IMG/VR virus record: IMGVR_UViG_3300003332_000015
Location: 1-64,000 of that record
DNA length: 64,000 bases
DNA from: a virus
Direction: 5' to 3' (one strand)
Part shown: positions 29,955 through 55,927 of the stretch, piece by piece
Layout: every line of letters begins with the position of its first letter
Position numbering within the stretch: the first letter of the stretch is position 1
The notes under the pieces: model-generated
Databases searched by the model: none
Seen by the model: only the letters and a program-made list of their open reading frames with translations
Told to the model about the DNA's origin: nothing
Translations under genes and position numbers: made by a program

Positions 29955-30365
29955 TTATAACATGTTACTTGCTTTTTCTAAATACTCACATACACCCATT
30001 AAAATCTCTTCACGTATAGTATTATCAACTAGTAGATCTTCAACTCCCATATCAACTGCAAAACCTATATCTTGAGCTAAGTCATATGGAGACATAGGAC
30101 CATAAAGTGCTAAGTTAGAAATTCCTGTAGATATTGGACTAAGTTTTCTAATATCAAAATTCTCATCTAATATTTTTATCTTGTCACCTTTCTCAAGAAT
30201 GGTATTCCCAATAGGAGTGTCTTGTGTAATCTCAATAGTAAGACTATCTTCTTTCTTTTTATCTTTCTTACCAACTTTTTTCTTACACGATACACAATAC
30301 CCAGTCTGTATTAGATACTTACTACCACAGTCAGGACATTTTGCTGTTTTACTTGCTTCTCTCAT
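29955..30365 (-). CDS. Zinc-ribbon protein with GDKI capsid-tag module, 136 aa
   Basis: Residues 10-27 form a four-Cys zinc ribbon (CPDC...CVSC). After a Lys-rich linker, residues 42-68 carry the recurring module (LTIEITQDTPIGNTILEKG then DKIKILDE), ending in L-D-E, which fits the T4-type prohead protease rule. The remaining ~68 residues (SPISTGISNLALYGPM; AQDIGFAVDMGVEDLLV) are helical and would be the mature portion. It lies between two tail tube genes, an odd place for a head protein, so it looks like a separately acquired cargo gene. Function unknown. Confidence 0.7.
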   Translation of the reverse strand: MREASKTAKCPDCGSKYLIQTGYCVSCKKKVGKKDKKKEDSLTIEITQDTPIGNTILEKGDKIKILDENFDIRKLSPISTGISNLALYGPMSPYDLAQDIGFAVDMGVEDLLVDNTIREEILMGVCEYLEKASNML

Positions 30366-30376
30366 AATATTTTTCC

Positions 30377-30898
30377 TTAAATTATGTTATCATCTAATGC
30401 TAAGAAACCAAAAGTTACATTAACAATAATTGGATCACCACTACTATAATCAAAACTAATGTCTCCAACTGTCATTGGAAAACAACCTTTAAAATTCCAA
30501 CTACCAAAACCTGGTATAGGAATATTCTCTGGAGTAACTGCCCAAACTGTCATGTTTACTCTGTTGTTTGAAAGTACATTATCAGGAGCAATAACTCCTG
30601 TATAACTATTTGCTACTTTATTTTTCCAAGCTACTAACCCTTTATATACAAGCCAGTTTCTATCAACTCTTAAATCAAAACTAAATTCATTCGGTGCTTC
30701 AATCTTACCAGAAGGTTTTGTGATCTTCTGTGTTTTATGATGAACCTCATAAGTACTCGTCCCTGTTGCAGGAACAGTAAAGTTTTGAATTCTTAAAAGA
30801 GTAGAAGTAATGTCGTCTATAAATGCTATAGGTTCAATTGATACATCAAATAAATTCGATAGTGCATCATCCCCCATTTGATAAATTTTATCTACCAT
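30377..30898 (-). CDS. 19: Tail tube protein (gp19-like), 173 aa
   Basis: Downstream of the sheath, as in T4. Tube signatures: NLFDVSIEPIAFIDDI at the start, ATGTSTYEVHHKTQKITKPS, PNEFSFDLRVDRNWLVYKGL, and a C-terminal FPMTVGDISFDYSSGDPI followed by VNVTFGFLAL. Hexameric rings of this protein stack to form the inner tube through which DNA passes. A degenerate promoter motif lies at 30923-30935. Confidence 0.85.
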   Translation of the reverse strand: MVDKIYQMGDDALSNLFDVSIEPIAFIDDITSTLLRIQNFTVPATGTSTYEVHHKTQKITKPSGKIEAPNEFSFDLRVDRNWLVYKGLVAWKNKVANSYTGVIAPDNVLSNNRVNMTVWAVTPENIPIPGFGSWNFKGCFPMTVGDISFDYSSGDPIIVNVTFGFLALDDNII

Positions 30899-31839
30899 TA
30901 GTATATCTCCTTATTCTGTATATTAATATTAGTAAAAATTTCATCAAAAGGAATATTTTTATTTTGTTTTATTCTTAAAAAAGTATAATCCTTTAATTCA
31001 TTACTACTCATAATTTTATTTTGTCGTTCTTGGTCTTTCTTTTTAAGTTGACCTTTTGCTGTAAAATGGTATGACTCATCCCATTCCATAATTAATTTTA
31101 AATCATTATTAACATAATCTAAAAAATATCTATCTTTAGTACAGTACTCTTTACCTTTATTTCCGTATTGTCCATTGGTGTTTAATCTTTCATCAAAGTA
31201 ATCAAAAAATTCACAAGCGTAATGATTAAAACGTCCACCACCTTTAAGGTTAAGTTTTCGTTCCTTAGCTTTTTTTATACCCGATATTTCCTCATAAGTT
31301 TTACCTTTTTTGGCTTTACTCATTTTAAGTTTTATTTCTTGTGCTTTTTCAGAACCATACTCTTCTTCCATAGATACACCTTTTCTTTTAGTGTTTCTAC
31401 CAAAAAGAGTTTTGGAAATTTTATTACGAACCTCTAATTTTTTAGCTGAATTATTTTTACCTTTTTGTCTTTCAGACTGTTTTCTTTTAAATTCTTCTGT
31501 GTGTTTAGGGACTTTTATTAATCCTTGTTCCCTTAAACTAGTTTTATATTCTTCAGTACAAATTCTTGAACAAGTTTTATAATATCCTATTTTATAACTT
31601 TCATATACTACATTACCTTGACCACAAATTAAACATTTTTTATTTGTTTTTATATCATTAAGTATACAATAAATTCTCTCACCTATTCTTGATTCACTAG
31701 ATAAAAAATGAGTTTCTTTATAAATTTCTTTTAGTCTTTCTTCAAAATTATTTCGTAAATATTTAGGGAGACCTGCATTGATACTCCCTGTTCGAGTAAA
31801 AGTATGTTTATCTGTTAAAAGAAACTCTTTAATAGTCAC
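30898..31839 (-). CDS. PD-(D/E)XK-type homing endonuclease with zinc finger, 313 aa
   Basis: A zinc-finger-like region (C69, C72, C90, C94) precedes NUMOD3-like basic repeats (residues ~110-185). The C-terminal domain has RYFLDYVNNDLKLIMEWDES: D241, then E252-x-D254, the spacing of Vsr/PD-(D/E)XK nucleases. The 48594-49667 protein has the same architecture. It starts with GTG at 31839, overlaps the tube start at its end, and is inserted cleanly between sheath and tube genes. Confidence 0.8.
   Translation of the reverse strand: MTIKEFLLTDKHTFTRTGSINAGLPKYLRNNFEERLKEIYKETHFLSSESRIGERIYCILNDIKTNKKCLICGQGNVVYESYKIGYYKTCSRICTEEYKTSLREQGLIKVPKHTEEFKRKQSERQKGKNNSAKKLEVRNKISKTLFGRNTKRKGVSMEEEYGSEKAQEIKLKMSKAKKGKTYEEISGIKKAKERKLNLKGGGRFNHYACEFFDYFDERLNTNGQYGNKGKEYCTKDRYFLDYVNNDLKLIMEWDESYHFTAKGQLKKKDQERQNKIMSSNELKDYTFLRIKQNKNIPFDEIFTNINIQNKEIY
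30923..30935 (-). promoter_or_regulatory. Degenerate late-promoter motif
   Basis: Minus-strand TTACTAATATTAA, inside the end of the endonuclease gene and 25 bases before the tube start. Confidence 0.45.
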
Positions 31840-31842
31840 TTA

Positions 31843-33384
31843 CTATACGCCTATGACTTCACTCAAAATGGTGGTCTGTCCCACATTTACGAATTCAAGT
31901 ACTATTCTTTCTGAATAAGGTGTTACTTGTATTCCAAGTGTATAAACAAATTTTCTAGCTGCTCTAGCTGCTCCGTCATTATTGTTTAAATCACATTGGA
32001 TAATATAATCTGATAAAAGACCCGATGCTAAAATAGGATCCATTAAAGTTTCACCTTTTGAAACAGCTAGTCTTCTATGTAATTCGTCATTAAGTTTTAC
32101 TATTTGATAAGTAAGTACACCTTTTAACATGTTAGAAATAATATAATCAAAAAGTCTTGCATGAGCAATCCAACTTGTATCTGATAATGAAAGAGGTGAT
32201 TGTGCTGTTCTTTGTGATGTTATCATAACACCATAACTTGCATACTGTACAATAGGATTTATTCCAGCTTCATCTAATGATTGTAGAGTTGCCTCACTAG
32301 GATCGTATTCCATCTGTACAATACCAGCACCTAATTGTCCACCATGTTTATTTTCATCGATCCATGCTGGAGCACCACCATTAAATATATTTGTCATCTG
32401 TGCATATTTTACACCAACTCTTCCAATTAAAGAAGTCCAAAAGTATGAGTTGTTATAAGTGTCTTTTACTTTTGCATGATTCCAATAAAAAGCTAATCCT
32501 TTATTATTTATACTAAAACCATCTTTAGTTGTAATAGAAGATGCCGCATCTGAACCTGCTGGTAAAGCTAAAATATAAGAAGCATACTTTTGGTATGTAC
32601 TTCTTAATGTATCAAACAAAGCTTCTACACCAGCTATTGCTGTAGGATCCATAAATATGTCTGCTTTATATGTATTTGACTGTTGAAAAAATGCCCAACC
32701 TAATGTTAACTCAGTTATTGTAATTGTTGCACCTCTGGCTCCATCTGAAAAAGCAACTTCAGCAGTGTCGTCAGTAAAAGATGTTATTGCTGATAGTGGA
32801 TTAACTACTGCTTGAATATAATCATCACCATCTAATACATCTAATATATATATATTTTTTCCAAATCCATCTTTTGCTCCTACTACTAAAGACACATCAT
32901 ATGTTTCTATTAATACACTATCTTTATATAACTTTATAGTAAAAACCGAATTAGTATCATTATAAGATACTAATACACCTAAGTCATCTACATATGGACT
33001 AGCTGCTGCAATAACGAAATGGTCTGTTACTAATGGAAAAGTAAAATCTTCAATTGTTGAAGGATCTTCACCTGCACCAAAAACTGCTGATCCAGCATCA
33101 GATACTAAAACTCCACCTAATAATGCTGTTGCATCGTAAGGAGCTGATATCCATAAACCTGACTGTTTGTTATACTGTATTGCTTCCCATACATCAGGGT
33201 AAGCTACAGATGGTTTACCAAATAAATCAATTATTCTTTTTTCTTGACCGGCATCTACGAAGATAGGAGTAGCTCCCCCTTTCCCGGCTCTTATTGTCAT
33301 TGCACCAACAGATCCTTCTGTACCAATTACGGTAGAAGACTTGTCTATTTTGTCAACTGTTAATCTCCAACTATTTGAAGGCAT
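31843..33384 (-). CDS. 18: Tail sheath protein (gp18-like), 513 aa
   Basis: Sheath features: the N-terminal TSVIGT-like strand (KSSTVIGTEGSVGAMTIRA), VDAGQEKRIIDLFGKPSVAY and GLWISAPYDATALLGGVLV near residues 50-95, and the conserved C-terminal helical domain (HARLFDYIISNMLKGVLTYQ; LASGLLSDYIIQCDLNNND; FVYTLGIQVTPYSERIVLEF). The sheath contracts to drive the tube through the envelope. The leader has an 11-bp inverted repeat built around the promoter motif, directly next to the AAAGGAG ribosome binding site. Confidence 0.9.
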   Translation of the reverse strand: MPSNSWRLTVDKIDKSSTVIGTEGSVGAMTIRAGKGGATPIFVDAGQEKRIIDLFGKPSVAYPDVWEAIQYNKQSGLWISAPYDATALLGGVLVSDAGSAVFGAGEDPSTIEDFTFPLVTDHFVIAAASPYVDDLGVLVSYNDTNSVFTIKLYKDSVLIETYDVSLVVGAKDGFGKNIYILDVLDGDDYIQAVVNPLSAITSFTDDTAEVAFSDGARGATITITELTLGWAFFQQSNTYKADIFMDPTAIAGVEALFDTLRSTYQKYASYILALPAGSDAASSITTKDGFSINNKGLAFYWNHAKVKDTYNNSYFWTSLIGRVGVKYAQMTNIFNGGAPAWIDENKHGGQLGAGIVQMEYDPSEATLQSLDEAGINPIVQYASYGVMITSQRTAQSPLSLSDTSWIAHARLFDYIISNMLKGVLTYQIVKLNDELHRRLAVSKGETLMDPILASGLLSDYIIQCDLNNNDGAARAARKFVYTLGIQVTPYSERIVLEFVNVGQTTILSEVIGV

Positions 33385-33397
33385 TGTATATTTCTCC

Positions 33398-33437
33398 TTT
33401 ACTAATATTTTTTATATTGTGTTATTATATTAGTAAA
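33398..33437 (-). repeat. Inverted repeat around sheath promoter
   Basis: TTTACTAATAT and its exact complement (33427-33437 and 33398-33408, 11 bp) can pair in long transcripts. The 5' arm on the minus strand is the promoter motif itself and the 3' arm runs into AAAGGAG, the sheath ribosome binding site. Confidence 0.65.
33424..33436 (-). promoter_or_regulatory. Late-promoter motif for sheath
   Basis: Exact minus-strand TTACTAATATAAT, 39 bases before the sheath ATG. Confidence 0.65.
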
Positions 33438-33451
33438 CAAATTGTTAATTT

Positions 33452-34153
33452 TTAGAAGTCTAACTCAACTTCATCAGTTAAATGATTAATTACAAATTCT
33501 AAAGCTTCATCATAATTATCAGTATCAAAATTATATGCTGAAGCAAAATTAAATACTAATGTTTCTGGTATAGTGATATCTGTATTTGCTATTAAATTAA
33601 ATGTTTCTATCTCTATATCTAAAGAAGAAGAATGTATCTTATTTCTTTCTAACCAATCGTTCTCATTATATTGTGGTTCAAATGACATTCCTGTATAACT
33701 TAAATGAGCTGCATATGAAACATCTTCGACATCAACAGTTACATAAGGTGCTAAAATAGTTTTATTATTTGCATCCCATGTTACATTTGTAAAAGCATAT
33801 TTATTATCAAAAGAAGTGTGTGACCAAAAAGATACATCATAACTTAAAACCATTGGAGCAAATCTTATTTTAGTTTCTAAAGCATCAATATAAACACCAG
33901 TACTATAAGCTCCAGGATGCCATCTTGAGGCATGACCTAAGTCTATATCTTTGAGTTTAAAATTTAAAAATGGTAATTCTAAATTACCTTTGTTTTGATC
34001 ACTTCGTTTTCTAAAAGCATACTCATTAGAAGAGTATATAACACGAGTTTGGTCTCCTCCAAAAAACATATTTGCAAAATGTGTTATTAAAGTAAGATCA
34101 ACCGCATATATAGTATTTAAAAAACTAGGATCATCATAATATCTTTGTGCCAT
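33452..34153 (-). CDS. Tail completion/terminator protein candidate, 233 aa
   Basis: Encoded just before the sheath. It has mixed alpha/beta character (LNTIYAVDLTLITHFANMF; ALETKIRFAPMVLSYDVSF; LDIEIETFNLIANTDITI) and an acidic C-terminus (EFVINHLTDEVELDF). In T4-like clusters the proteins that complete the tail top (gp3, gp15) sit near the sheath; this is the basis of the call. No family motif could be confirmed. Confidence 0.6.
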   Translation of the reverse strand: MAQRYYDDPSFLNTIYAVDLTLITHFANMFFGGDQTRVIYSSNEYAFRKRSDQNKGNLELPFLNFKLKDIDLGHASRWHPGAYSTGVYIDALETKIRFAPMVLSYDVSFWSHTSFDNKYAFTNVTWDANNKTILAPYVTVDVEDVSYAAHLSYTGMSFEPQYNENDWLERNKIHSSSLDIEIETFNLIANTDITIPETLVFNFASAYNFDTDNYDEALEFVINHLTDEVELDF

Positions 34154-34171
34154 TGTTTACCTTAAAATAAT

Positions 34172-34510
34172 TTATATTCTTACCTTATCAAGAGTATAAA
34201 TAAAATGAGCTATTAATTCTTCTTTAGCTTCTTTTATCATATCATTTATATTTCTATGACCAAATTCTTTAGCATCTGCATCAGTAAAATTTTGTTTTGT
34301 CTTATATGAATACTGACCAAAAGCTAACATAATATTCTGTATATGTTCAACAACAGAAACATTGTTATCATCATACATTAAATAAATAAATTCTTCTTTA
34401 AGTTTTTTTGATTCTGTAAGAATTTTTATTTTGTCCCCAGGTTCAAGAATGTTTTCACCTATTTTAATTTCTTGTGTTATTTCAATTAAATCTTTATCAA
34501 CTTTTCTCAT
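34172..34510 (-). CDS. Small protein with N-terminal GDKI capsid-tag module, 112 aa
   Basis: Residues 8-33 carry the shared module (LIEITQEIKIGENILEPGD, then KIKILTE) directly after the start MRKVDKD. It ends in L-T-E. The remainder (residues 34-112) is helical and charged (SVVEHIQNIMLAFGQYSYK; NINDMIKEAKEELIAHFIY). If the module is cut off by the prohead protease, about 79 residues would be packaged. Degenerate promoter motif at 34523-34534 and AAGGAG precede the start. Confidence 0.7.
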   Translation of the reverse strand: MRKVDKDLIEITQEIKIGENILEPGDKIKILTESKKLKEEFIYLMYDDNNVSVVEHIQNIMLAFGQYSYKTKQNFTDADAKEFGHRNINDMIKEAKEELIAHFIYTLDKVRI

Positions 34511-34522
34511 TATAATCTCCTT

Positions 34523-34534
34523 ACTATATTAGTA
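34523..34534 (-). promoter_or_regulatory. Degenerate late-promoter motif
   Basis: Minus-strand TACTAATATAGT followed at once by AAGGAG for the 34172-34510 gene. TACTA/TAGTA can form a tiny 5-bp stem. The motif overlaps the 3' end of the 34529-35065 gene. Confidence 0.45.
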
Positions 34535-35065
34535 TTTAAATATTGTGTATCCTACACTAACAGAAAAAGTAATATCTAAATTATAATAGATACCTATATT
34601 AAACTTTTCTAATATAATAGTATTTATACCTATTCCTATTGTTGGTAAGGAGTAAATTCCATCAGGATTATTATGTTTATAAGTTAGCATAGGACTAAGA
34701 GATATAATCTCTGTTTTCATAAACTCTTTTAATTCTTTAGATAAGTCTGTAATACGTTTTTCAAGTACTTCTATATTTGGTAATAACTTGTCATCAATAC
34801 GTGTTGTAAGAGCATCTATGGTGTCTTGCTGTGTCAATGTGATGTCATACACTACATCATACTCTTCTTGTAATGTCTTATTATTGTCTAATGACTCACT
34901 TAAATTATCTTCAGCTTCCAAATATAAATTAGTCATTATGATGTAAGCATTTTTAAGATCAAAATAATCATTAGGTACACTTAATTCATACTCACCAATA
35001 TTAATAACTTCTTGTGTAAATACAAAAGAAGTTAAAAATATAAATAAAATTAAAAATTTTTTCAT
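34529..35065 (-). CDS. Exported coiled-coil protein with beta-rich C-terminus, 178 aa
   Basis: A clear signal peptide (MKKFLILFIFLTSFVFTQE) is followed by a coiled-coil (residues ~45-115: NLSESLDNNKTLQEEYDV, TRIDDKLLPNIEVLEKRI). The C-terminal 60 residues have alternating aromatic strands (GIGINTIILEKFNIGIYYNL; TFSVSVGYTIFKY), as in outer-membrane insertion. A lysis or envelope function (spanin-like) is possible together with the 35648-36001 protein, but no lipobox is present. Confidence 0.6.
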   Translation of the reverse strand: MKKFLILFIFLTSFVFTQEVINIGEYELSVPNDYFDLKNAYIIMTNLYLEAEDNLSESLDNNKTLQEEYDVVYDITLTQQDTIDALTTRIDDKLLPNIEVLEKRITDLSKELKEFMKTEIISLSPMLTYKHNNPDGIYSLPTIGIGINTIILEKFNIGIYYNLDITFSVSVGYTIFKY

Positions 35066-35655
35066 TATTGATTCTTATAACTGTCGTAAACAGAAAGACC
35101 AGTTCTTCTATATACTTCATCAGAAAAATCTTTCCATTGATCTTTGTCTTGAATATCTGTTATAAATTGTGTCCAACCCATATCAAGTAAAGCATCCCAT
35201 GCAACATCGTTATCTAATAAAACAGCTTCAAGTCTTTTAACATTACCAGCAGCTATATCAGTTATAACATAACCACTAAATCCTGAATTCCATTTAGCTT
35301 TTTCTTTTAGTATTTTAACTTTGTCACCTTTTTCTAAAATAAAACTACCAATTTTTATGTCTTCGGTAATTGTTATTAAATCTTCTTTTTTAATTTCTTT
35401 TTCAATTCTCATTATCTTTTCCTCCCACGGCATTCTTGGAAATGTATCTTTATAATCGACTACTTCATCCCACTCACAATTTCTTTTTAAAAACGATAGA
35501 ATAAGTCCTTTATTCCTATTTGCTTTTAAATCAATTACTGCTTTTCTTATTACTTTAGTATCATTACAATCAAAATTGTATACTCTTCCATTAATATTTA
35601 ATTTAAGTGAGTAATCTGTATAGACTAAAATATCTACATTAAATGGACTATCCAT
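35065..35655 (-). CDS. Protein with GDKI capsid-tag module; probable internal start at 35412
   Basis: The open frame starts at 35655 (MDSPFNVDILVYTDYSL), overlapping the previous gene, with a poor ribosome binding site. A second ATG at 35412 in the same frame has a strong GGGAGG 8 bases before it and opens MRIEKEIKKEDLITITEDI, just like the other tagged proteins; from it the module spans residues 12-37 and ends L-K-E. The C-terminal part (GYVITDIAAGNVKRLEAVLL; RRTGLSVYDSYKNQ) would be the mature protein. Either two nested products exist or an upstream domain has been fused on. Confidence 0.65.
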   Translation of the reverse strand: MDSPFNVDILVYTDYSLKLNINGRVYNFDCNDTKVIRKAVIDLKANRNKGLILSFLKRNCEWDEVVDYKDTFPRMPWEEKIMRIEKEIKKEDLITITEDIKIGSFILEKGDKVKILKEKAKWNSGFSGYVITDIAAGNVKRLEAVLLDNDVAWDALLDMGWTQFITDIQDKDQWKDFSDEVYRRTGLSVYDSYKNQ

Positions 35656-36001: not shown

Positions 36002-36014
36002 ATTATATTAGTAA
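36002..36014 (-). promoter_or_regulatory. Late-promoter motif abutting a start codon
   Basis: Exact TTACTAATATAAT immediately before the ATG of the 35648-36001 gene; it also encodes the last residues of the broken endonuclease. Confidence 0.55.
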
Positions 36015-36221
36015 CAAGATTAACTTTTTTAGGTCTACCAAATGTCCATCCATTATTTAAATAATTTTGTAAATCAGTTAGTTTAACAATCTTTCCAATA
36101 CAATCTTTATTTATATATCGTCTCCCTTTATTTACAGCAGGTTTCCTTCTCTTACTTTCTGACATATGTCTTTTACTTTCAGAACTCCGCTTTTTACCTT
36201 TAAGAGCTATAGATAACCTTT

Positions 36222-36243
36222 GTCTTGTCATAGTCTTGTCATA
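36222..36243. repeat. Exact 11-bp tandem duplication
   Basis: GTCTTGTCATA occurs twice in direct succession on the plus strand and shifts the frame of the HNH gene. The exact identity of the copies suggests a recent slippage event. Confidence 0.9.
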
Positions 36244-36727
36244 TCACTAACTATTCTTCCTTTCTGAGATTCTGATATCTTATGTTTATGTTCTTCACTC
36301 ATATGTTTATTATAGTAATGATGATTTTTACCTTTTTTAGCTTCTGATATTTTTTTACGTGTTTCAATAGTACATGGTGGTTTATCTTGACGTAACCTAG
36401 CGTGCTGTTTAGAGGTTAACTTAGGAGAATATTTTACATTTTTTGACATAAACATAAAAGCATAAGTCATTGACCCTCCATAAATCTTCCAAAGAATTAG
36501 ATGAGCAATGAAATGTTCTCTTGCTGTAAGACGAATTATATTTTCAGGTTCATCACTTCCACCTAAAGCTCTAGGTATGATATGGTGTTTTTCTGTATAA
36601 GTATCTTTTGGGATTTTTCTTAATTTTCTTGAATCGATAAATTTGTCGTATCTAATTTTATGAATAGAATTCATTGTACTAACCTTTTTAATTTTTAAGT
36701 CACTTCAATGACTGTTAATATATTATT

Positions 36728-36798: not shown

Positions 36799-37392
36799 TT
36801 ATTCTGTTGACGCTACTTCTGCAGGTTCACTTGTTGCAGGTTCAGTTTCAAGCGGAAAGACTTGAATTTTATCACCAGGTTCTAAAATAAAATCTGTATC
36901 TGGTAATCTTACTTCCTGTTCAACATCAATGATGATTGCATCAGCATCAAAAGCTGCTTGAGCTGATTCTAAACCAGGATCTTTTATTTCGTCCTCTTCT
37001 TCTTTCACTTTGTCCTTGTCTTCTAACATTTTGTCTTTCTCCTCGATTGACTCATCTTTACTTAATTTTTTAGAAATAGTTGTCATTGCTTTATCCAACT
37101 CTTTCATAAATTCATTAGCTATTTTATCATCTGATGTAGCAAGACCTTTTAATAGTTGAAGTCCTTTCATCTGGGATTCATTATCACCACCAAAATTACC
37201 TTGCATATCTTTTACTATTTTTTTAGTATCTACTTTTTCTTTTATTTTTTCCATCTTTTCTCTCCATTGTGTATAACAGACAGCAACTCTTTGTTCCTGT
37301 GAATCAAACTCTTTATTTTTAGTTAATGTACTTATACATCGACTTATAAAATCTTTTTCTTTTTCAGCTTTATTAGGTTTTGGTAAAGGCAT
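36799..37392 (-). CDS. Head-core-like protein with C-terminal GDKI tag module, 197 aa
   Basis: The N-terminus MPLPKPNKAEKEKDFISRC then RVAVCYTQW is a motif seen at the start of several phage head-morphogenesis proteins. The middle is a Lys/Glu-rich coiled-coil (KKLSKDESIEEKDKMLED). Residues 153-182 carry a variant module (IIDVEQEVRLPDTDFIL then EPGDKIQVFPLE), here near the C-terminus with one extra residue before Glu. This resembles the 55199-55927 protein in order and suggests a scaffold or prohead-core relative. It closes the operon with the ADP-ribosyltransferase-like gene. Confidence 0.7.
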   Translation of the reverse strand: MPLPKPNKAEKEKDFISRCISTLTKNKEFDSQEQRVAVCYTQWREKMEKIKEKVDTKKIVKDMQGNFGGDNESQMKGLQLLKGLATSDDKIANEFMKELDKAMTTISKKLSKDESIEEKDKMLEDKDKVKEEEDEIKDPGLESAQAAFDADAIIIDVEQEVRLPDTDFILEPGDKIQVFPLETEPATSEPAEVASTE

Positions 37393-37396: not shown

Positions 37397-37579
37397 TTAT
37401 CCTATTAAATTTCTTTGCATCGTATTTATAAATTGACTCATAAATTCTTTATCATTAGGTAATACATCTAAAACTGCTTGTGCAAATTGTGATCCACCGT
37501 TAGGATTCCTCATAAGAAGTTTTACCATATTTTGCATAATAATATCATCTTCTTTTAGACTTTTCTTTATTACTTTCAT
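37397..37579 (-). CDS. Small helical protein with possible targeting N-terminus, 60 aa
   Basis: The start MKVIKKSLKE fits a short N-terminal peptide ending L-K-E, like the neighbouring protein at 37579-39381. The rest is amphipathic helix (MQNMVKLLMRNPNGGSQF; DKEFMSQFINTMQRNLIG). It overlaps the upstream stop (TAATG), has AAGGAAA as ribosome binding site, and is followed by the tagged 36799-37392 gene. Packaging in the head is a guess. Confidence 0.6.
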   Translation of the reverse strand: MKVIKKSLKEDDIIMQNMVKLLMRNPNGGSQFAQAVLDVLPNDKEFMSQFINTMQRNLIG

Positions 37580-39381
37580 TACATAAATTTCCTTAATATA
37601 CCTATTAAAATTTTAATTATTGGTTTTGGTATTGGTAATGAGTCTGATCTATTTTCCATTTGATCTAACATATAAGTATAATAAGCTTTATTAGCTATAA
37701 AATACTTTGTCATTAAACCAGCTGGAGTATCTACTACAATACCACCATCTTTTTCCACTGAGTGTACTACATCACCAAATATATTTTTTATTCTTGGTAT
37801 CAGAGTTTTAACAAATAATTTAGGAGGTTGTTTAAATTCTCCTCCACTTCTTTTCTCTAACATAATAGCTAGATTCTGTGTCATTACTCCCCATATAGGA
37901 TCTCGACCTACTTCTACTTGCATTTGTGTAAATGCACCGATAATAGATTTAGGAGAACCAAAAGTTGCTACTAATTTATACATACCACTATTTTGTTTTC
38001 TAGCAGCTATTCCACCTGTTTTATCTCCAAAGAAAGTCCATGCTACTGCACGACTTTCAAACTTACCTTGATCCCAAGAAGCACCTACTGCTTTTTGGTA
38101 TGAGTCTCTGAAATTAGAATATAGAGCATCTTGCTCTTGTTTTGATAAATCATAGTATTTAAAACTTTCATTAAGTACATGAGAATATTTAATATTATAA
38201 AGTCCATCAATAATACTATCTATATAAACAGATTCATTAAGAGGAGGTTCTGTTGAAATTATAAATCTTTTAGCTGTTTTAATTTCACCTGTTTTCCATC
38301 TAGGAATAGATGTTCCCATTGTACCAATATCTTCTTTCCATTCACCACCTGACCAAATACCGTCATGCCATATTCCACCAGAAAAAATACCACCTAGAAA
38401 ATTACCGTAACTCCAATCTCCACCACTAAAATTTCCTTTGTGCCATTTACCTTTTTTCCATATACCATTTAACCAAACATCACCGTACCATTGACCTGAT
38501 ACCCAAGTACCCTTATTCCAAATAAATTCTTTATCTTCTGATATAATAATTTCAGCTTCTTCTACTTTAGCTTTCACAAACCAAGGAAAATCTTTTTGAA
38601 AATCTTTAAGACTATACCCTTCAGGGGTATCAATAGACTTTACAGTACCTTTAAAATAGTCTAATAAAATTTCAGCTTCATCTGCTCTTGACTGTACTTT
38701 ACCCATGTCCTTTGCAGGTATCCATCCACCATTAGGTAGTTTTTTACCTGTAGAAATTACACCGTCACTTCCTACTTCATAGTCAATAATTTTACCGTCA
38801 TAATCAGTTTTAGCATATTCAAAAGGAATAGCAGTATCATAAGCATATGAAACTACAACATTACCATCATGATTACCGGTAAATATAATTCCTCTTACCC
38901 CTCGAATACTACATATACCATTTTTTACATAAGAATCAACAAAATTATTATAAGCAACGTCTGCTGAGTAAGATGGTTCATCTAATGTTTTCTCTAACAT
39001 CTTTGACCAATTAAATATATTTCTAGGTAAATCAATAGTATCATGATAAATCCTATAATGATCAATTAACTGGTCATTCAATGTATATTTATCACCAAAA
39101 ACAGATTTCGAAATATTATAATCAAAAATAAGTAAATTTTTAGGGTTAATACGACACTTTAATAATGTATCACCATAGTGTGTCATATTACTTTTTAGTT
39201 GTGAAGAAAGATCATATGTTAAATAAAATCCTTTTCCATACATTGATCCATACCCAGGTTTAAATCCAGTATCAATAATTCCTAGAGCATCTCCCATACT
39301 TGTTCTATGATAAGCAAGTAAATAATTACTATGATATGTTATGGATTCTTTTAATACTGTTCCAAAATCTATTTTTCTCAT
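37579..39381 (-). CDS. ADP-ribosyltransferase-like protein with W-x-x-G repeat domain, 600 aa
   Basis: Residues ~20-60 (LLAYHRTSMGDALGIIDTGF, then PGYGSMYGKGFYLTYDLSSQ) resemble the ART/PARP core: His in the first strand, GFYLT-type Tyr strand after a glycine-rich loop. FDYNISKSVFGD and VSYAYDTAIPFEYAK follow as in phage ART-like proteins. Residues ~285-350 are repeats of W-x-x-G-x-W form (WNKGTWVSGQWYGDVWLNG; GGDWSYGNFLGGIFSGG). The C-terminal half is helical and unassigned. The start MRKIDFGTVLKE ends L-K-E, a candidate prohead-protease site, so it may be an injected enzyme. Catalytic Glu not located. Confidence 0.55.
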   Translation of the reverse strand: MRKIDFGTVLKESITYHSNYLLAYHRTSMGDALGIIDTGFKPGYGSMYGKGFYLTYDLSSQLKSNMTHYGDTLLKCRINPKNLLIFDYNISKSVFGDKYTLNDQLIDHYRIYHDTIDLPRNIFNWSKMLEKTLDEPSYSADVAYNNFVDSYVKNGICSIRGVRGIIFTGNHDGNVVVSYAYDTAIPFEYAKTDYDGKIIDYEVGSDGVISTGKKLPNGGWIPAKDMGKVQSRADEAEILLDYFKGTVKSIDTPEGYSLKDFQKDFPWFVKAKVEEAEIIISEDKEFIWNKGTWVSGQWYGDVWLNGIWKKGKWHKGNFSGGDWSYGNFLGGIFSGGIWHDGIWSGGEWKEDIGTMGTSIPRWKTGEIKTAKRFIISTEPPLNESVYIDSIIDGLYNIKYSHVLNESFKYYDLSKQEQDALYSNFRDSYQKAVGASWDQGKFESRAVAWTFFGDKTGGIAARKQNSGMYKLVATFGSPKSIIGAFTQMQVEVGRDPIWGVMTQNLAIMLEKRSGGEFKQPPKLFVKTLIPRIKNIFGDVVHSVEKDGGIVVDTPAGLMTKYFIANKAYYTYMLDQMENRSDSLPIPKPIIKILIGILRKFM

Positions 39382-39429: not shown

Positions 39430-40230
39430 TTACTTTTTCTTCTTTTGTTTTTGCCATTGTTTAAGAGCTGCTTGTCTTAATTTTTCTCTAGTTTCTTTAG
39501 ATACAATTTTACCTTTATTTGATTTTGATATTTTAAAACGTGTTTCCTTTGTTATAACTCTTCCTTTACTTATTTCACTTATTCTTTTCTTTTTCTTATC
39601 AGCTACATCTTTACCATATCTTTCTTCATATGAAATACCTTTTTGTGATTTACTTATTTTCTTTTTTGATTTATCAGAATGATGTTTACCTGTCATACCA
39701 GGACTAGGATTATCTTTTTTAGAATCACTTATTTTCTTTTTAGTTTCTTCTTATCGAGGTCTCCCTTTTAAAGAACTACTAACTTTTTCTTTCCACTTTT
39801 TAGCACCTTCTTTGCCCATTGTCTCGATATGTGTTTTACCTTTTTGTATTTTACTAAGATGATTTTTAACTTCTTTAGAACGTATTTTTCCTCTATTTGA
39901 ATCACCAATTTTTTTCTTATGTTCTTCGCTCATTTCTATACTTTCTTTTAATCTTTGGTATTGTTTAGATGTTAAAGTATTAATATGTCTACCGTCTTGT
40001 GATAGTAACCAAAAAGCATATGTCATTTGTTTTCCATAAGCTTTCCACAAAATTAGGTGAGCGATATAGTGTTCTCTTGCTGTTAAGATTATAAGATTTA
40101 AAGGTTCATTAGAGCCACCCAAGGATCTTGGGAGAATATGATGTTCTTCTGTATAAAAATTTTTTGATCTTTTTCTAATAGGACGTGATTGGATAAATTT
40201 GTCGTAGCGGATTTTATGAATATTCTTTAT
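39430..40230 (-). pseudogene. HNH homing endonuclease with ATA in start position and an internal stop
   Basis: The whole frame reads as a typical HNH/NUMOD3 enzyme: KNIHKIRYDKFIQSRPIR, YTEEHHILPRSLGGSNEP, LTAREHYIAHLILWKAYGK, then repeats ending KLRQAALKQWQKQKKK. Two defects are visible. The codon at the expected start (40230-40228) is ATA, correctly spaced after AGGAG, where the sibling genes have ATG. A TAA at 39753-39751 interrupts GRPR-stop-EETKKKISDSKKD in the same frame. Full-length enzyme is unlikely to be made. Confidence 0.8.
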
Positions 40231-45010: not shown

Positions 45011-45898
45011 TTATTTTCTTGTGGTTCCAAACCACCACCCATCTAAAGGTAGTTCCTGTGCATCAATTCTTTTATTAACTACACCGTTTGTTATTCCTTT
45101 TTTACCTTTATTTTTACTAGGTTTACCTAGCTTACCTAAAGATATTTTATTTCCTATTTCTTGTTTTTCTTTTTCAGTTCTATTATTCCATATTTTCTGA
45201 CTACCATTAGAAATATTTAGTCGATTTTGTTTACTACGTACAACACCTTTTGCATTTTGTTTACCTTTCATACCTTTACTTCTAAGTTTAGACAATCTAT
45301 CCCTTTCCTGTTTAGACGTGTTAATCCATTGTAATTTTGCAGCTTTACTAATTTTATTTCTTCTTATTTTTTCTACAATAGGATTAACAACCTTATTCAA
45401 CTGTGCAATAGACATTCTATTTTTTTGTTCCTCAGTACGTGGTAAATTCTTTCTATTACGTTGTGCTTTTTGTTGTACATCTTTTTCTTTAAAAGGAGAG
45501 TTAATAGAAGCCCATTTCTTTTTTCGAGTCTTCATTTCCTTTCCAAGTTCTACTCCATATATCTCCTCATAAGTTTTACTTTTTTTTAAAAAAGACAAAT
45601 ATTTTATACTTTCCTCTCTTAGTTTAGAATATTGTCTAGAAGTTAATCTATAGTTATATCTATTAAACCCTTGCATCATATAAAAAGCTTGAGCCATTTT
45701 CCCACCATAAACTTTCCAAAGAATCATATGAGCTATAAAATGTTCTCTTGCCGTTAATATAATTATATTTTCTTTTAAGTCATTTCCACCAAGAGACCTT
45801 GGAAGAATATGATGATTTTCTGTATAAGTATCTTTTGGGATTGTTCTTAGTTCCCGTGACTTAATAAATTTATTATACTTATCTTTATATATCTCCAT
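45011..45898 (-). CDS. HNH homing endonuclease with NUMOD3 repeats, 295 aa
   Basis: N-terminal HNH: TENHHILPRSLGGNDLKEN then LTAREHFIAHMILWKVYGG. NUMOD3-type basic repeats fill residues 150-270, and the end (AQELPLDGWWFGTTRK) is a NUMOD-like DNA-contact tail. This is the only intact long NUMOD3 copy among the HNH genes of the window. The start ATG at 45898 directly follows the promoter motif, and the first residues (MEIYKDKYNKFIKSRELR) align with its siblings, so the start is correct. Confidence 0.9.
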   Translation of the reverse strand: MEIYKDKYNKFIKSRELRTIPKDTYTENHHILPRSLGGNDLKENIIILTAREHFIAHMILWKVYGGKMAQAFYMMQGFNRYNYRLTSRQYSKLREESIKYLSFLKKSKTYEEIYGVELGKEMKTRKKKWASINSPFKEKDVQQKAQRNRKNLPRTEEQKNRMSIAQLNKVVNPIVEKIRRNKISKAAKLQWINTSKQERDRLSKLRSKGMKGKQNAKGVVRSKQNRLNISNGSQKIWNNRTEKEKQEIGNKISLGKLGKPSKNKGKKGITNGVVNKRIDAQELPLDGWWFGTTRK

Positions 45899-48593: not shown

Positions 48594-49667
48594 TTAAACT
48601 ACCTCTGTCTTTATTAAATTTATTTCTTTACAGTAAGTACTAATATCGTTTTCTCTAATACGAATAAATTTAAATTGTGGTAAAAATTGTTCAATTCTAT
48701 TTTGTCTAATAATATCTTTTTCTTTTAGTTTATCTTGTTTAAAATGTCCTTCTTCATCCCATTCGATAATTAATTTTTTATCAAAATTAATATAGTCTGG
48801 CCAATAACCTAATTCTTCAATTAAGTATTCACCATTTCCATATACAGCATATCTACCTTTAGTATTTAAAATCTTATCTAGTAATTGAAAAAATTCACAA
48901 GCTTTTTTATTGTATGCTGGAAATCCAATTTGATAGTTATTCTTAATTTCTTTAGCTCTTTGTATAGTAGCAATTCTACTTAAATATTCTTTTTGTTCTT
49001 TACTTCTTATTTTATTAGTATTTCCTTCACTAATTTTATTGGAAGTTTCCAATGCTTTTTCTTTACCATACCTATCTATATAATTTTTATTTCTGAATTC
49101 CTGCCATTCTTCATAATAAACTTTATTGTTATTCTGCATAATTTTAGCAGCTTTTTCTTTACGTTTATATAATGTATCTATACTACCTTTCCAAGTAACT
49201 CCTTTTTTAGATTGTGAAAGAGTTACTTTCATTTTTTCCGCTTTATTAACACCATATCTTTCTTCCCAAGTTTTACCTTTATATTTTTTACTTATAATAG
49301 ATTTACTTACTTTAACTTTAGACTCTTTTGAATTCTTTCTACCTTTCCCTCTAATAGAATTATGTTGTTTTTTACATGAGTTTAAAAAACAAGTTTTACT
49401 ATACCCATACTTCATTGTTTTATATTGTAGTTTATTTGTATCACAAATAGGGCAGTATAATTGAATTTCTATATCATTTAATATACAATAAATTCTTTCA
49501 AATAAAGAGGAATCGTCACTTAAAAAAGATGTATAAAAATACAAACTATTTTTAATTTCTAATCTATTATATATAAATTCTTTTAAATTACCTTTAAGTC
49601 GCCCTTTTATATCATAAGCATTATTAGTAATCCAAGTATATAATTGTTTTTTACTATAATTAATCAT
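48594..49667 (-). CDS. PD-(D/E)XK-type homing endonuclease with zinc finger, 357 aa
   Basis: Same architecture as the 30898-31839 protein: zinc-finger-like Cys (C72, C75, C93, C98), NUMOD3-like basic repeats (KESKVKVSKSIISKKYKGK; QSKKGVTWKGSIDTLYKRK), and a C-terminal nuclease core YWPDYINFDKKLIIEWDEEG with D291 and E302-x-D304. The two share the phrase RIYCILNDI and the ACEFF segment before the core. It overlaps the neighbouring genes at both ends, so the insertion is exact. Confidence 0.8.
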   Translation of the reverse strand: MINYSKKQLYTWITNNAYDIKGRLKGNLKEFIYNRLEIKNSLYFYTSFLSDDSSLFERIYCILNDIEIQLYCPICDTNKLQYKTMKYGYSKTCFLNSCKKQHNSIRGKGRKNSKESKVKVSKSIISKKYKGKTWEERYGVNKAEKMKVTLSQSKKGVTWKGSIDTLYKRKEKAAKIMQNNNKVYYEEWQEFRNKNYIDRYGKEKALETSNKISEGNTNKIRSKEQKEYLSRIATIQRAKEIKNNYQIGFPAYNKKACEFFQLLDKILNTKGRYAVYGNGEYLIEELGYWPDYINFDKKLIIEWDEEGHFKQDKLKEKDIIRQNRIEQFLPQFKFIRIRENDISTYCKEINLIKTEVV

Positions 49668-50401: not shown

Positions 50402-50423
50402 TATTATAGTCCTTTCACTTAGT

Positions 50424-50436
50424 ATATTATATTAGT
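50424..50436 (-). promoter_or_regulatory. Late-promoter motif
   Basis: Exact TTACTAATATAAT, 22 bases before the 49667-50401 start, with AAAGGA between. Confidence 0.65.
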
Positions 50437-50438
50437 AA

Positions 50439-51197: not shown

Positions 51198-51417
51198 CCT
51201 TATCCGCCAAATAGAATACAACTGACATTAGTGCAAATGAAGCACCTACTGACCTCATAAGTCCTACACTCATTCCATCTATTTTTTTAAAAATAGTTAT
51301 TGCTTCTAAGAATATAGAAATATCCCAATTTAGAAAACTAAAAAATAGACCAAAAATAGCACAATACATAAAATAATTAACTACAAATATAAAAAATACA
51401 CTTATTATTTTAAACAA
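51190..51417 (-). CDS. Small membrane protein, 75 aa, TTG start
   Basis: Two hydrophobic helices (FKIISVFFIFVVNYFMYCAI and SVGASFALMSVVFYLA) joined by a short loop. GGAG precedes the TTG at 51417. The gene overlaps the methyltransferase start by eight bases and follows another membrane protein gene by 14 bases. A membrane accessory or holin-like role is possible but not shown. Confidence 0.6.
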   Translation of the reverse strand: MFKIISVFFIFVVNYFMYCAIFGLFFSFLNWDISIFLEAITIFKKIDGMSVGLMRSVGASFALMSVVFYLADKGD

Positions 51418-51431
51418 TTAATTTATCTCCT

Positions 51432-52409: not shown

Positions 52410-52465
52410 TGAGACTCCTTTATACTATAATAATATTTTAGTGTCATTTTTTTAATAAAATATCA

Positions 52466-52496
52466 TAAAAAAACCCTCCTCAAACTGAGGAAGGTT
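52466..52496 (-). terminator. Terminator after major capsid gene
   Basis: Stem 52472-52482 with 52486-52496 (10 of 11 pairs) and a run of T on the minus strand; it ends capsid transcripts just after the 52520 stop. Confidence 0.8.
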
Positions 52497-52519
52497 TATA
52501 TTAAAATACGAAATGATTT

Positions 52520-53929
52520 TTAAAGGTTATTTAATTTCATTCTTACAAGATAATTAGAATTAAGTACTTTTGAATCACCGAAGTGGAAAAGACCCTTTTC
52601 TGAATATCCTCTAGCATACTCTAAAGTTGTTGATTCATAAAGTGGAATCAATGAACCGAATAGAATAGCCATATCAGCTGATTCGTTTGGATTTCTCCAG
52701 ATACCTAACATCTCATCAGCAGGAATAATACTTGTTGGTGCCTGATATACAGGTTTTCCTAAGAAAGTACCAATTCTATAAATTCCAATTTCTGGTTGTA
52801 ATCCAGTTGCATCGAACTTATCATGTAATGTTAAGTATGAACAAGCATCTACACCAGCAACAATAACATTTACTCCACCTCTTTGAACTGCATTGTAAAT
52901 AGTTTTACCAGCAGCAGCAATAGTACGAGTAAGTGACTGTGCGTGAGCGATTTCACTATCAGCACCAGCAGCAGCAAAGTCTGCATTAAAAGTAACAAGT
53001 GCATTCTTTAAAGAATGTCTATAAGCCATTTTAACAGCAGCGAAATCTAATGATTTCTTTAACTCGTCAGCAGCTCCAGCAACAAGTGAACTTTCTACAT
53101 CTATGTCTAAAGTTGTTCCAAGTAATAACTCAGTCATCTTTGTCCATGAAACATAAAGTGGGTGTGGTTTAGCTCTTAACTGATAATCTCTTAACTGTAG
53201 TTCAACAGACTGAATTTCTCCAGTAGTTGCTTCAGAATCAAAATTGTAAGCCATTAATACTACGTCACCACCACCTATAGCGGGATTAAAAGTAATCTGT
53301 GTTACACCAGTATCATAATTAACTGATCCAGCTGAAAGTAATGTACCTACGATATTCCCAGCACCATCATCAACAGCAACTGGTTCTTCGTTTACAAAGA
53401 TTTTAACTGAAAATGGTCTAAGAGGAGCATTTGCTACTGTTAAATCATAAACTGTTTGTGCGCCAGCATCTGTCATTTCTTCTTCTTCAACTTCTGATGA
53501 GTATCTATAAGAAGGACTTTCGTGTGTTACTGTATCTATTGTAGCACCTCTTTTAGAAGCTGAGTAAACAGGACTTAAATAGTAAACGCTATCTCTAGCT
53601 GTTACCATTGGATAATCACTGAATATTTCACCTCTAACACTATTAGGATAACCTAATCTTACAATTCTTAATACATTTTCAGGTGTTGTCTGAAAAGCAT
53701 TTGAAATCTGTGTTTCTGTTAGTGCTTGTAAATGTTGTGCTTGATTCTCTAGAACAATAGCAGCACCTATAGCTTTGTTCTCATCTTTATCTCTAAGTTC
53801 TTTTAGACCTTCACCTACGCCTTTTTCTTTAGACCAAATCTCAAAGAGTTCGTTTCCTCTTTGTTTTCTTTCTGAAAGTAACTCAGCTCTTTCTTCAAGA
53901 ACTACTTTCTCTTCCATTTTTTTACGCAT
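52520..53929 (-). CDS. 23: Major capsid protein (gp23-like), 469 aa
   Basis: The start is ATG 53929 (MRKKMEEKVV), preceded by AGGAG; a longer frame to 54001 has none. T4 gp23-like landmarks: LRIVRLGYPNSVRGEIFSDY, PMVTARDSVYYLSPVYS, and LRAKPHPLYVSWTKMTELLL, ending KVLNSNYLVRMKLNNL. An inserted domain at ~168-235 has DDGAGNIVGTL and SVNYDTGVTQITF. The N-terminus is helical with ALTE ending at residue 72, close to the gp23 cut site of T4 (after 65), so maturation probably removes ~72 residues. It forms the icosahedral shell. Confidence 0.9.
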   Translation of the reverse strand: MRKKMEEKVVLEERAELLSERKQRGNELFEIWSKEKGVGEGLKELRDKDENKAIGAAIVLENQAQHLQALTETQISNAFQTTPENVLRIVRLGYPNSVRGEIFSDYPMVTARDSVYYLSPVYSASKRGATIDTVTHESPSYRYSSEVEEEEMTDAGAQTVYDLTVANAPLRPFSVKIFVNEEPVAVDDGAGNIVGTLLSAGSVNYDTGVTQITFNPAIGGGDVVLMAYNFDSEATTGEIQSVELQLRDYQLRAKPHPLYVSWTKMTELLLGTTLDIDVESSLVAGAADELKKSLDFAAVKMAYRHSLKNALVTFNADFAAAGADSEIAHAQSLTRTIAAAGKTIYNAVQRGGVNVIVAGVDACSYLTLHDKFDATGLQPEIGIYRIGTFLGKPVYQAPTSIIPADEMLGIWRNPNESADMAILFGSLIPLYESTTLEYARGYSEKGLFHFGDSKVLNSNYLVRMKLNNL

Positions 53930-54102
53930 TATTACACTCCTAAATGCTTTATAAAATTTATGTTTTTTTATAAGAGTGTGGTGAATTTCAACTTTCCACA
54001 ATTCTTTTTTTTTCTATATACTTTTTAATATCTTATTTATAAAATATTACGCTTTTTTCATTTTATTTATATTGTATTAGTAACTGTTTAAAAAAAGGTT
54101 AC
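53930..54102 (-). other. Capsid gene leader and promoter region
   Basis: A 173-base AT-rich gap upstream of the capsid start. It holds a degenerate promoter motif at 54070-54083 and two TATAAATA boxes (near 54063-54070 and 54037-54044), the T4 late-promoter core. TGTGG/CCACA could form a small hairpin near the start. The capsid gene may thus use more than one late promoter. Confidence 0.4.
54071..54083 (-). promoter_or_regulatory. Degenerate late-promoter motif upstream of capsid gene
   Basis: Minus-strand TTACTAATACAAT, about 140 bases before the capsid ATG, followed directly by TATAAATA. Confidence 0.45.
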
Positions 54103-54393
54103 TTACATCATACTTGTATCAGCAAAAATATCATATGGCTCAATATCATTAAGTATATTCTTATAAGTTTCAACTATTTGAATTAAATTTTGTTCAGTAT
54201 TATCAAAACCTCTAGGTCCTTCAAACCATTGAATTATAGATTGAGTTATATTATCAAACTCAGTATCATATACTTTTCCAGTATCTACTCTACCTGACTC
54301 AATTATTAAAGCAATTCGATCACCTGCTTCTAATACTGTTTCACCAACTGTCACTTCTTCTTTTATTTTAATTAAATTTTTGTTATTTTTCAT
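54103..54393 (-). CDS. Small protein with N-terminal GDKI capsid-tag module, 96 aa
   Basis: After MKNNKN the tag module occupies residues 7-32 (LIKIKEEVTVGETVLEAGD then RIALIIE), ending in I-I-E. The remaining 64 residues (SIIQWFEGPRGFDNTEQNL) would be the mature protein. It lies between the scaffold-like genes and the capsid gene, exactly where T4 encodes prohead-core proteins. This location is the strongest hint for the tag's role. Confidence 0.7.
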   Translation of the reverse strand: MKNNKNLIKIKEEVTVGETVLEAGDRIALIIESGRVDTGKVYDTEFDNITQSIIQWFEGPRGFDNTEQNLIQIVETYKNILNDIEPYDIFADTSMM

Positions 54394-54405
54394 TATATTT
54401 CCTTT

Positions 54406-54816
54406 TTATATAAAAGAGAGTTGTTTAGCTTTAACTGCAAAATAGAAATACATACCTGAAGATGTAAGAACAATTACATCATCATTAACTTCATCATACT
54501 GTTCAATTTGATCTATATCATTCCAAGCTATACCAACTTCAAATGATTTTGTTCCATAATAAAAATGTCCCATATTTTTAGTTTCATACCAATCAATTTT
54601 GAATGGTTTATCAAACTTAATATAAGTACCTTTACCACTTCCTATATTATATTCAGTAGCTCCAACAGTATACTTTTCTATCACAGATTTAAAAGTTTCA
54701 ATATCCATAGGTTTTAACTGTTCATTAATTAAACGTATTTTATCACCTTTTTCAAGAATAATATCACCTACTTTAACTTCACTTTTAATTTCTATTAATT
54801 CGTTTTTCTTTCTCAT
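54406..54816 (-). CDS. Small protein with N-terminal GDKI capsid-tag module, 136 aa
   Basis: The start ATG at 54816 (MRKKNELIEIKSEVKVGDI) is preferred over an upstream ATG because AAAGGA lies 7 bases before it. The module covers residues 7-32 (ILEKGDKIRLINE) and ends in I-N-E. The C-terminal ~100 residues are beta-rich with KIDWYETKNMGHFYYGTKSF and DVIVLTSSGMYFYFAVKAKQ, a compact, unassigned domain. Adjacent to the other tagged head gene at 54103. Confidence 0.7.
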   Translation of the reverse strand: MRKKNELIEIKSEVKVGDIILEKGDKIRLINEQLKPMDIETFKSVIEKYTVGATEYNIGSGKGTYIKFDKPFKIDWYETKNMGHFYYGTKSFEVGIAWNDIDQIEQYDEVNDDVIVLTSSGMYFYFAVKAKQLSFI

Positions 54817-54846
54817 TATAGTTCCTTTAAATATGAGCATACTAAA

Positions 54847-54872
54847 ACTCTTTTGTCTTAAGACAAAAGAGT
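54847..54872 (-). terminator. Perfect 13-bp hairpin, possible terminator
   Basis: ACTCTTTTGTCTT is immediately followed by its exact complement. On the minus strand it follows the 54896-55174 gene and is trailed by GAGTTTTAG, so the T run is short. It may be a weak terminator or an RNA-processing site. Confidence 0.55.
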
Positions 54873-54895
54873 AAAAGTCTACTAATATTCTTTAT

Positions 54896-55174
54896 TTACG
54901 CTGAAGCTCTATTAGCTACAATAACAATTACATCATCAACTGCGATAACATAAGTAGTGTCTTCAGTAATAGTTACTTTCCCAGCCGCTGGGAAAGTAAT
55001 TACTGCGTCTCCAGTTACATCAACACCAGCTCTTAAAATCTGTACAACAGCAGCAAGGTCGTAATCAACTTGAAAGTCAATTGTAATTGCCCCATCTGTA
55101 TCATCTTGTGCAACGGCAACATACTTGTAGCCGAATGAAACTCCGTTTGTAGGGCGAGTTTGAATTACACTCAT
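54896..55174 (-). CDS. Small beta-rich virion protein, head decoration candidate, 92 aa
   Basis: An all-beta sequence (NGVSFGYKYVAVAQDDTDGA; ITIDFQVDYDLAAVVQILRA; TYVIAVDDVIVIVANRAS) with no charged clusters. GC content is visibly higher than in neighbouring genes. Position between scaffold and capsid genes suggests a head decoration or completion protein. AAAGGAGA precedes its ATG. Confidence 0.65.
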   Translation of the reverse strand: MSVIQTRPTNGVSFGYKYVAVAQDDTDGAITIDFQVDYDLAAVVQILRAGVDVTGDAVITFPAAGKVTITEDTTYVIAVDDVIVIVANRASA

Positions 55175-55198
55175 TGTATTTCTCCTTTAAATTCTAAA

Positions 55199-55927
55199 TT
55201 ATAAATCTATAGGCTTAGTCATATCAAAAGTTGCTATAACATTTTGATTATGAATAAGTTCTACTTCATCTTGATATGAATTAAAATAAATTCTATATTT
55301 TTTATTATATGAGTCAAAAGCTTGCTCATCATAATGGCTTTCTTTAATTAGTTTTTTTTTTTCAGAAACTAATATAATTTTATCACCTTTCTCAAGTATA
55401 ATATCTGTACCTGGTATTGGTGTGTCTTCCTCAACTGTGATAATTTCTTCGTCTTTTTTAGAATCTTTATCATCTTTAGCATCGTCTTTAGCGTCTGCTT
55501 TACGATCATTATCTTTTTTCTTATCATCAGCTTTCTGTTTAGCTTTTTCTTTTTCTCTATCATCTGCTTTGTCTGTATTAGCAGCCGTTGCTTCTTTTTT
55601 CTTATCGTCTTTTTTGTCAGGATCATCATCATCTTTTTTATCAGAATCTTTTTTATCCTTATCATCTTTATCTTTATCATCTTTTTTGTCATCTTTTTTG
55701 TCATCTTTTTTGTCATCAGCTTCATCGATAACAACTTTTTTAGTATCAGAATCCTCACGAATACCCATACCGTTTAACATGTCAACAACTTCATCAAAAG
55801 CAATATTATAAATCTGTGCTACCATAGAGGAAGCATCTTTAAAATTAAGACCATCTTCTTGTACAAAATCTAAAAAAGCCTCTTTAACATCTTTATCAAA
55901 AGATTTTTCTTTAATTATTTTTCTCAT
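55199..55927 (-). CDS. Scaffold-like protein with DDKK tract and C-terminal GDKI tag module, 242 aa
   Basis: Starts MRKIIKEKSFDKDVKEAFLD. Residues ~70-160 are an Asp/Lys low-complexity tract of DDKK units, almost identical in style to the tract in the protease-scaffold protein. The tag module at residues 161-189 (IITVEEDTPIPGTDIIL then EKGDKIILVSE) follows, so here the tag is internal. The C-terminus (KESHYDEQAFDSYNKKYRI) is unassigned. Position between protease and capsid genes and the low-complexity nature fit a prohead core component. Confidence 0.7.
   Translation of the reverse strand: MRKIIKEKSFDKDVKEAFLDFVQEDGLNFKDASSMVAQIYNIAFDEVVDMLNGMGIREDSDTKKVVIDEADDKKDDKKDDKKDDKDKDDKDKKDSDKKDDDDPDKKDDKKKEATAANTDKADDREKEKAKQKADDKKKDNDRKADAKDDAKDDKDSKKDEEIITVEEDTPIPGTDIILEKGDKIILVSEKKKLIKESHYDEQAFDSYNKKYRIYFNSYQDEVELIHNQNVIATFDMTKPIDL
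55676..55725 (-). repeat. 12-bp tandem repeat encoding DDKK
   Basis: The unit TCATCTTTTTTG recurs about four times in tandem and encodes consecutive DDKK blocks. Repeats of this kind readily expand or contract. Confidence 0.75.

Follow-up and report, generated by a model that had tools for sequence, protein, structure and literature searches.

Encapsulin shells of the HK97 fold load ferritin-like and other cargo by means of cargo-loading peptides, which are short, usually C-terminal and uncleaved. In phage T4, the capsid-targeting sequences (CTSs) of IPI, IPII, IPIII and Alt guide unrelated proteins into the core of the prohead and are cleaved off by gp21 at L/I-X-E (PMC9026906, PMC3012670). 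Head proteins of SPN3US and phiKZ carry long propeptides in front of Glu-ending motifs of a gp21-type protease, for which head targeting has been proposed, and giant-phage paralogues with identical N-termini have been reported (PMC5694885, PMC10052503). The internal head protein DarA of phage P1 loses its N-terminal part to a prohead protease (PMC12810830).

The window of 64,000 nt analyzed here (positions 1 to 64,000 of the 146,575 bases [146.6 kb] of IMG/VR record IMGVR_UViG_3300003332_000015) encodes a recurrent GDKI module that resembles the T4 CTSs in several respects. The segment is common to otherwise unrelated proteins, L/I-X-E follows next to it, and the phage encodes both a gp21-type protease and a gp23-type capsid protein. 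T4 CTSs comprise about 10–20 N-terminal residues, whereas the GDKI module, about 28 residues long and without evident likeness to them in sequence, is predicted to fold as a domain and is also found internally, C-terminally or in triplicate. An extreme N-terminal location is not the rule, as the module is internal in many copies and C-terminal in nine; this lack of the defining position, together with the larger folded domain, is the reason why we do not class the module as a member of the T4 CTSs. The propeptides of SPN3US and phiKZ are similar in preceding a Glu-ending cleavage motif of a gp21-type protease, but this motif is A/S-x-E, and no small domain is shared there over many proteins and at both ends. 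The head of P1 lies outside the gp23 family, and a repeated module is not described for DarA in the part of the account cited here (PMC12810830).

The initial annotation had recognized the module in seven proteins of the window. This observation is confirmed, since all seven ORFs are open on the minus strand at the coordinates given in Table 1 and align through one common module, and since a profile search of the whole genome returns only those seven. The residues common to the seven window modules are I, L-E, G-D and a downstream E. Against all six-frame ORFs of the genome, the HMM of the seven modules found exactly these proteins with 46–61 bits, a range that is partly circular because the same sequences trained the HMM; the next ORF reached 4.7 bits. 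Module copies in other phages provide a non-circular test (E down to 3e-14), and reversed ORFs used as a control gave nothing below E 1.8. A sixth GGNGAYAARATH match in the DNA of the genome (125915) does not represent a module. The spelling is either [IV]G-x-x-ILEKGDKI or PGTD-IILEKGDKI, and one genome often has both. The module is located near the N-terminus of three window proteins (34172, 54103, 54406), internally in three (29955, 35065, 55199) and near the C-terminus of one (36799). The endings are those originally described, namely five of the [LI]xE type (LDE, LTE, LKE, IIE, INE) plus VSE and PLE. The remainder of each protein had been called unrelated, which holds inside the window, because none of the pairs among the seven proteins match once the module is masked (BLASTP, E<0.01). 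All seven copies are located inside the structural block, and the whole-genome profile search showed no spread of the module into the early genes.

Table 1. Coordinates of the GDKI modules, the head genes and further ORFs discussed in the text.
Feature	Sequence	Position	Strand	Remark
GDKI module in protein 29955-30365, after N-terminal zinc-ribbon-like segment	window	30138..30254	-	predicted site ILDE|N
GDKI module, N-terminal in protein 34172-34510	window	34388..34504	-	predicted site ILTE|S
GDKI module, internal in protein 35065-35655	window	35278..35394	-	predicted site ILKE|K
GDKI module (PDTD variant), near C-terminus of protein 36799-37392	window	36826..36942	-	usual place without [LI]xE (VFPLE)
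GDKI module, N-terminal in protein 54103-54393, between protease and capsid genes	window	54274..54390	-	predicted site LIIE|S
GDKI module, N-terminal in protein 54406-54816	window	54697..54813	-	predicted site LINE|Q; first sequence of AlphaFold model
GDKI module (PGTD variant), internal in protein 55199-55927, after long D/K-rich linker	window	55337..55453	-	ends LVSE|K
Prohead protease, T4 gp21 type, fused to coiled-coil scaffold-like region	window	55929..57497	-	phrog_207 and AlphaFold/Foldseek
Major capsid protein, gp23 type; likely start is in-frame ATG (MRKKMEE...)	window	52520..53929	-	Pfam Gp23
LTE in capsid N-terminal region, with propeptide predicted to be cut after about residue 72	window	53714..53722	-	capsid alignment
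Ferritin/rubrerythrin-like ORFs	L050; L015; L051; L016	9156-9998; 4373-4909; 41-574; 4802-5158		Pfam
MKxRxTFVSNSSSSSF proteins	L065	2302-2712, 3219-3527, 3835-4113, 4115-4489
HNH/homing-like ORFs	window	27443-28081, 30898-31839, 36228-36674, 39751-40122, 45011-45898, 48594-49667		by eye

Derived searches retrieved more than 40 further copies from the head and tail structural gene blocks of ten other uncultured phage lineages, and the scanned loci contain 46 non-redundant complete copies in eleven lineages including that of the window. The full records of G007 and G010 yielded eight more matches, one of them already counted and two of them weak. Patterns derived from the profile led to the IMG/VR matches L014, L015 and the 147-kb G003, to L048 and L050, and to L051 and the 200-kb G010; L058 (with three near-identical relatives), L062 and L063 were added through the capsid alignment. 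A single capsid protein found no match in IMG/VR, whereas the alignment of relatives succeeded as a query, and tblastn with single modules against named phages was likewise without a match. At this sensitivity the module was not found in G011 (capsid 51% identical, 155-kb record), G012 and G014 (5.9 kb), nor in seven reference phages with related capsid proteins, and G013 gave a marginal partial match only. The module is not obligatory, given that the capsid relative G011 has the same kind of protease yet no module. A scan of 84,980 bacterial and archaeal GTDB genomes for the PGTD-type spelling returned 0 confirmed relatives. A predominance of the module in phages or bacteria without a T4-type prohead protease was not seen in the IMG/VR and GTDB searches.

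The comparison across phages bears out the early view of a mobile add-on to unrelated proteins. Four phages encode ferritin/rubrerythrin-like proteins in their structural blocks (Pfam E down to 1e-29), and two of these proteins harbor the module, before the ferritin-like domain in L050 and after it in L016; the orthologues, which are 43–59% identical, are without it in L051 and L015. By analogy, these two ferritin-like proteins are reminiscent of encapsulin loading. The homologue of window protein 46953 in G007 (L074 402-887) bears a C-terminal module, and a 60-residue domain is shared ahead of the module in five phages with different continuations after it. A zinc-ribbon segment is common to window protein 29955-30365 and L051 589-1104, and the upstream domains of window protein 36799-37392 are also present in proteins of L016, L051, L062, L075, L015 and L074. 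Judged by these alignments, the module is an interchangeable attachment on differing cargo. A sequence of the form M-P-[LI]-P-x-P...FISRC...QRxAVCYxQW precedes the module in three phages (window 36799-37392, L015 5442-5693, L074 1550-2527).

The gain and loss of the module on homologous proteins could also be expected if it were mainly a recombination product, i.e., a short piece of coding sequence that moves among structural genes and does little by itself. The many ORFs resembling HNH homing-type genes in the same block and a truncated, probably decayed copy in G003 (L016 16955-17059, a 35-residue open frame beside the tail tube gene) fit this explanation. However, L-E-x-GD is strongly conserved across phages whose capsid proteins are 51–67% identical, a coupled site follows the module, and the early genes have remained free of it, so that we regard a mere recombination product as very improbable.

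The genomic place of the copies points to the head. In the window, the protease-scaffold gene (55929-57497) and the capsid gene enclose three copies, as had been noted from the outset, and the follow-up of the profile across lineages documents that copies cluster at these genes in independent phages. Six of the eight lineages that have both genes in sequence contain copies between those for the prohead protease and the major capsid protein (three in the window, four in L050, one each in L051 and L058, two each in L063 and L064). Two copies are located just downstream of the capsid gene in G003 and one directly upstream of the protease gene in L062. Other copies are found among sheath, tube and neck genes, and four of the seven module genes of the window are placed among tail genes, 15–25 kb from the capsid gene. 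The module might accordingly be an assembly tag for another part of the virion (tail, neck or baseplate) or for a shared chaperone, a reading favored by the copies that adjoin sheath and tube genes in the window, G003 and G002. We consider it improbable in view of the six lineages with copies between protease and capsid genes, among them L063 with both of its copies there, and because the site after the module fits the rule of the head protease.

The assignment of 55929-57497 to the gp21-type proteases, which had been proposed from the sequence, is substantiated by its fold match and a conserved His/Ser pair. The product matches phrog_207 (head maturation protease) with E 3.1e-12, and the protease alignment shows invariant H84 and S136. 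With this alignment as the query of a sequence search, T4 gp21 came up only at E 0.43, which made a structure model necessary. The AlphaFold model of the N-terminal 196 aa (8 sequences, pLDDT 72, pTM 0.72) found the T4 gp21 chains of 5jbl as the only significant match in the PDB (Foldseek, E 2.9e-5). The capsid protein scores 30.1 bits against Pfam Gp23 (cut-off 24.4), and the capsid relatives of the window phage are 51–67% identical. The alignment of four capsid proteins revealed an invariant LTE about 70 residues into the protein. The T4 gp23 propeptide has 65 residues (PMC5694885), and the invariance of the LTE and its position near the end of a propeptide of this size make a preference of the protease for L-x-E plausible in this group of phages.

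The AlphaFold model of the module (44 sequences) is a compact mini-domain of four short strands with pLDDT 92–96 over residues 11–30. The confidence falls to about 61 from the conserved Glu onward, so that the predicted site is the edge between the ordered mini-domain and a flexible linker. No significant family was found in scans of the modules against Pfam, NCBIfam and PHROGs, a profile search of the PDB returned chance matches only, and Foldseek with the module model gave no significant relative. The nearest structure, a P450 beta meander, aligned with a TM of 0.6 over 26 residues; with E above 0.3 it remained below significance and was taken as shared super-secondary structure. Membership in DUF7210 (PF23843; 14.4 bits) and TrkA_C (PF02080; 13.9–15.0 bits) was rejected against a cut-off of 27 bits each. 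All three display a weak likeness, in sequence or fold, to a beta hairpin of the form G-x-x-[IL]-x-x-G-[DE]-x-[IV], and this resemblance likely reflects a common super-secondary structure.

The sequence that follows the module was evaluated in the 39 copies with at least 12 residues after it, with positions counted from the Gly of GD. In 24 copies a Glu is present at +8 and in eight it occupies +7, so that 82% of the modules have it at either slot, compared with 14% after comparable hydrophobic strands elsewhere. The motif [LI]xE occupies +7/+8 in 29 of the 39 copies, while linker shuffles gave 8.7 ± 2.5 with a maximum of 18 in 5000; as the copies share ancestry and the counts overstate their independence, these site figures are indications and not clean probabilities. 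Two lineages contribute none of the [LI]xE sites. The register of the motif moves together with the Glu when the latter shifts by one residue. All 12 copies with the Glu at +7, later-found ones included, have I or L and never V at position +5; among the 24 copies with the Glu at +8, 11 have V at this position (contrast with the +7 copies, p 0.004). The rule, once set, also held in four of five copies with downstream sequence that turned up later. This coupling disfavors a purely structural Glu, since the hydrophobic residue would not be expected to shift along with it.

The prediction of [LI]xE after the module is thus upheld well above expectation, but the stronger claim of the initial annotation, that every copy is a removable tag, is not. 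None of the nine C-terminal copies has an [LI]xE site; their lack of it is consistent with a cleavage signal but weak evidence, as several end before the site position. Three modules in series are present in an acidic, linker-rich protein of two phages (L015 2775-3323; L048 7186-7812), in which I-x-E stands behind modules 1 and 2, and the chain terminates with module 3, which has no site; this is possibly a multivalent core protein. C-terminal copies, and internal ones with about 100 preceding residues, misfit a simple removable N-terminal propeptide, and [LI]xE is a short motif. The earlier interpretation is thus supported in part, by the mobile module, its place in the genome, the gp21-type protease, the capsid LTE and the coupled [LI]xE. 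Internal and C-terminal modules are repeatedly preceded, at a distance of a few residues, by the dipeptide E-S (KKKES, RKES, VKES; L015 3057-3173 and 5601-5690, L048 7447-7563 and 7723-7809, L051 1003-1101, L050 10004-10120). It lacks the hydrophobic residue and is a possible second cleavage site.

C-terminal, internal and triple copies would be natural for a mini-domain that binds the virion or core, is retained on its proteins without cleavage, and anchors them to the shell, the scaffold or each other. The conserved Glu would then cap the last strand or pair with the Lys/Arg of GD[KR]I. The compact predicted fold is in line with a retained domain, as is the finding that most head proteins of giant phages are uncleaved (42 in SPN3US; PMC10052503). 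A structural Glu, however, needs no [LI] two residues before it, and the [LI]xE unit shifts its register as a whole. Moreover, the Glu is lost in C-terminal copies and located outside the confident part of the AlphaFold model. A retained domain therefore seems unlikely to us, though less so than the other alternatives.

The occurrence on many unrelated proteins at the side of the head genes, usually with a protease cutting signal behind it, indicates that the module is probably a loading label for the head. We favor, with some confidence, a portable prohead-targeting tag that is usually cut by the gp21-like protease, thereby combining targeting and cleavage. The independently folded module would serve as a cargo-loading domain of uncultured phages with T4-type head genes and, by attaching to the scaffold/core or the interior of the shell, would carry unrelated proteins into the prohead during its assembly. 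In most copies with following sequence, the last strand would pass into [LI]xE within a flexible linker, where the gp21-like protease of the phage could cut and free the cargo inside the maturing head, as T4 capsid-targeting sequences do; C-terminal and multiple copies would bind the same way without a cut. More tentatively, and with slightly less than even confidence, we propose a previously undescribed transposable cargo-loading domain, a folded mini-module that can be placed on almost any protein at either end, inside or serially so that it is packed into the head, that has a release site only where there is cargo to release, and that may deliver ferritin-like, zinc-ribbon and many other proteins. 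An injection of the module proteins into the host is a matter of speculation. Should the proposal hold, the head cargo of a whole group of large uncultured phages could be read from DNA alone by means of this sequence label, and the list would include many proteins of unknown kind with a possible action on the host as infection begins. Phage-based delivery of proteins would gain a compact loading tag, usable at either end, and the concept of T4 capsid targeting by a short peptide would extend to a folded domain.

Several other motifs were observed in the structural blocks. In the module-free G011, four small proteins encoded just upstream of portal and protease share the N-terminal sequence MKxRxTFVSNSSSSSF (Table 1), which might be this phage's own tag; no occurrence of VSNSSSSSF was found in the literature searched. 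A second short N-terminal motif, MRxI...E, which looked CTS-like by eye, showed no clear enrichment in structural genes. Tandem WxxGxW repeats are present in structural-block proteins of the window (37579-39381), L016 (5426-5848) and L074 (1550-2527), and the window protein has a weak PARP-like N-terminal match below the cut-off (E 0.0057). Finally, many ORFs resembling HNH/homing-type endonucleases are interspersed among the structural genes of the window.
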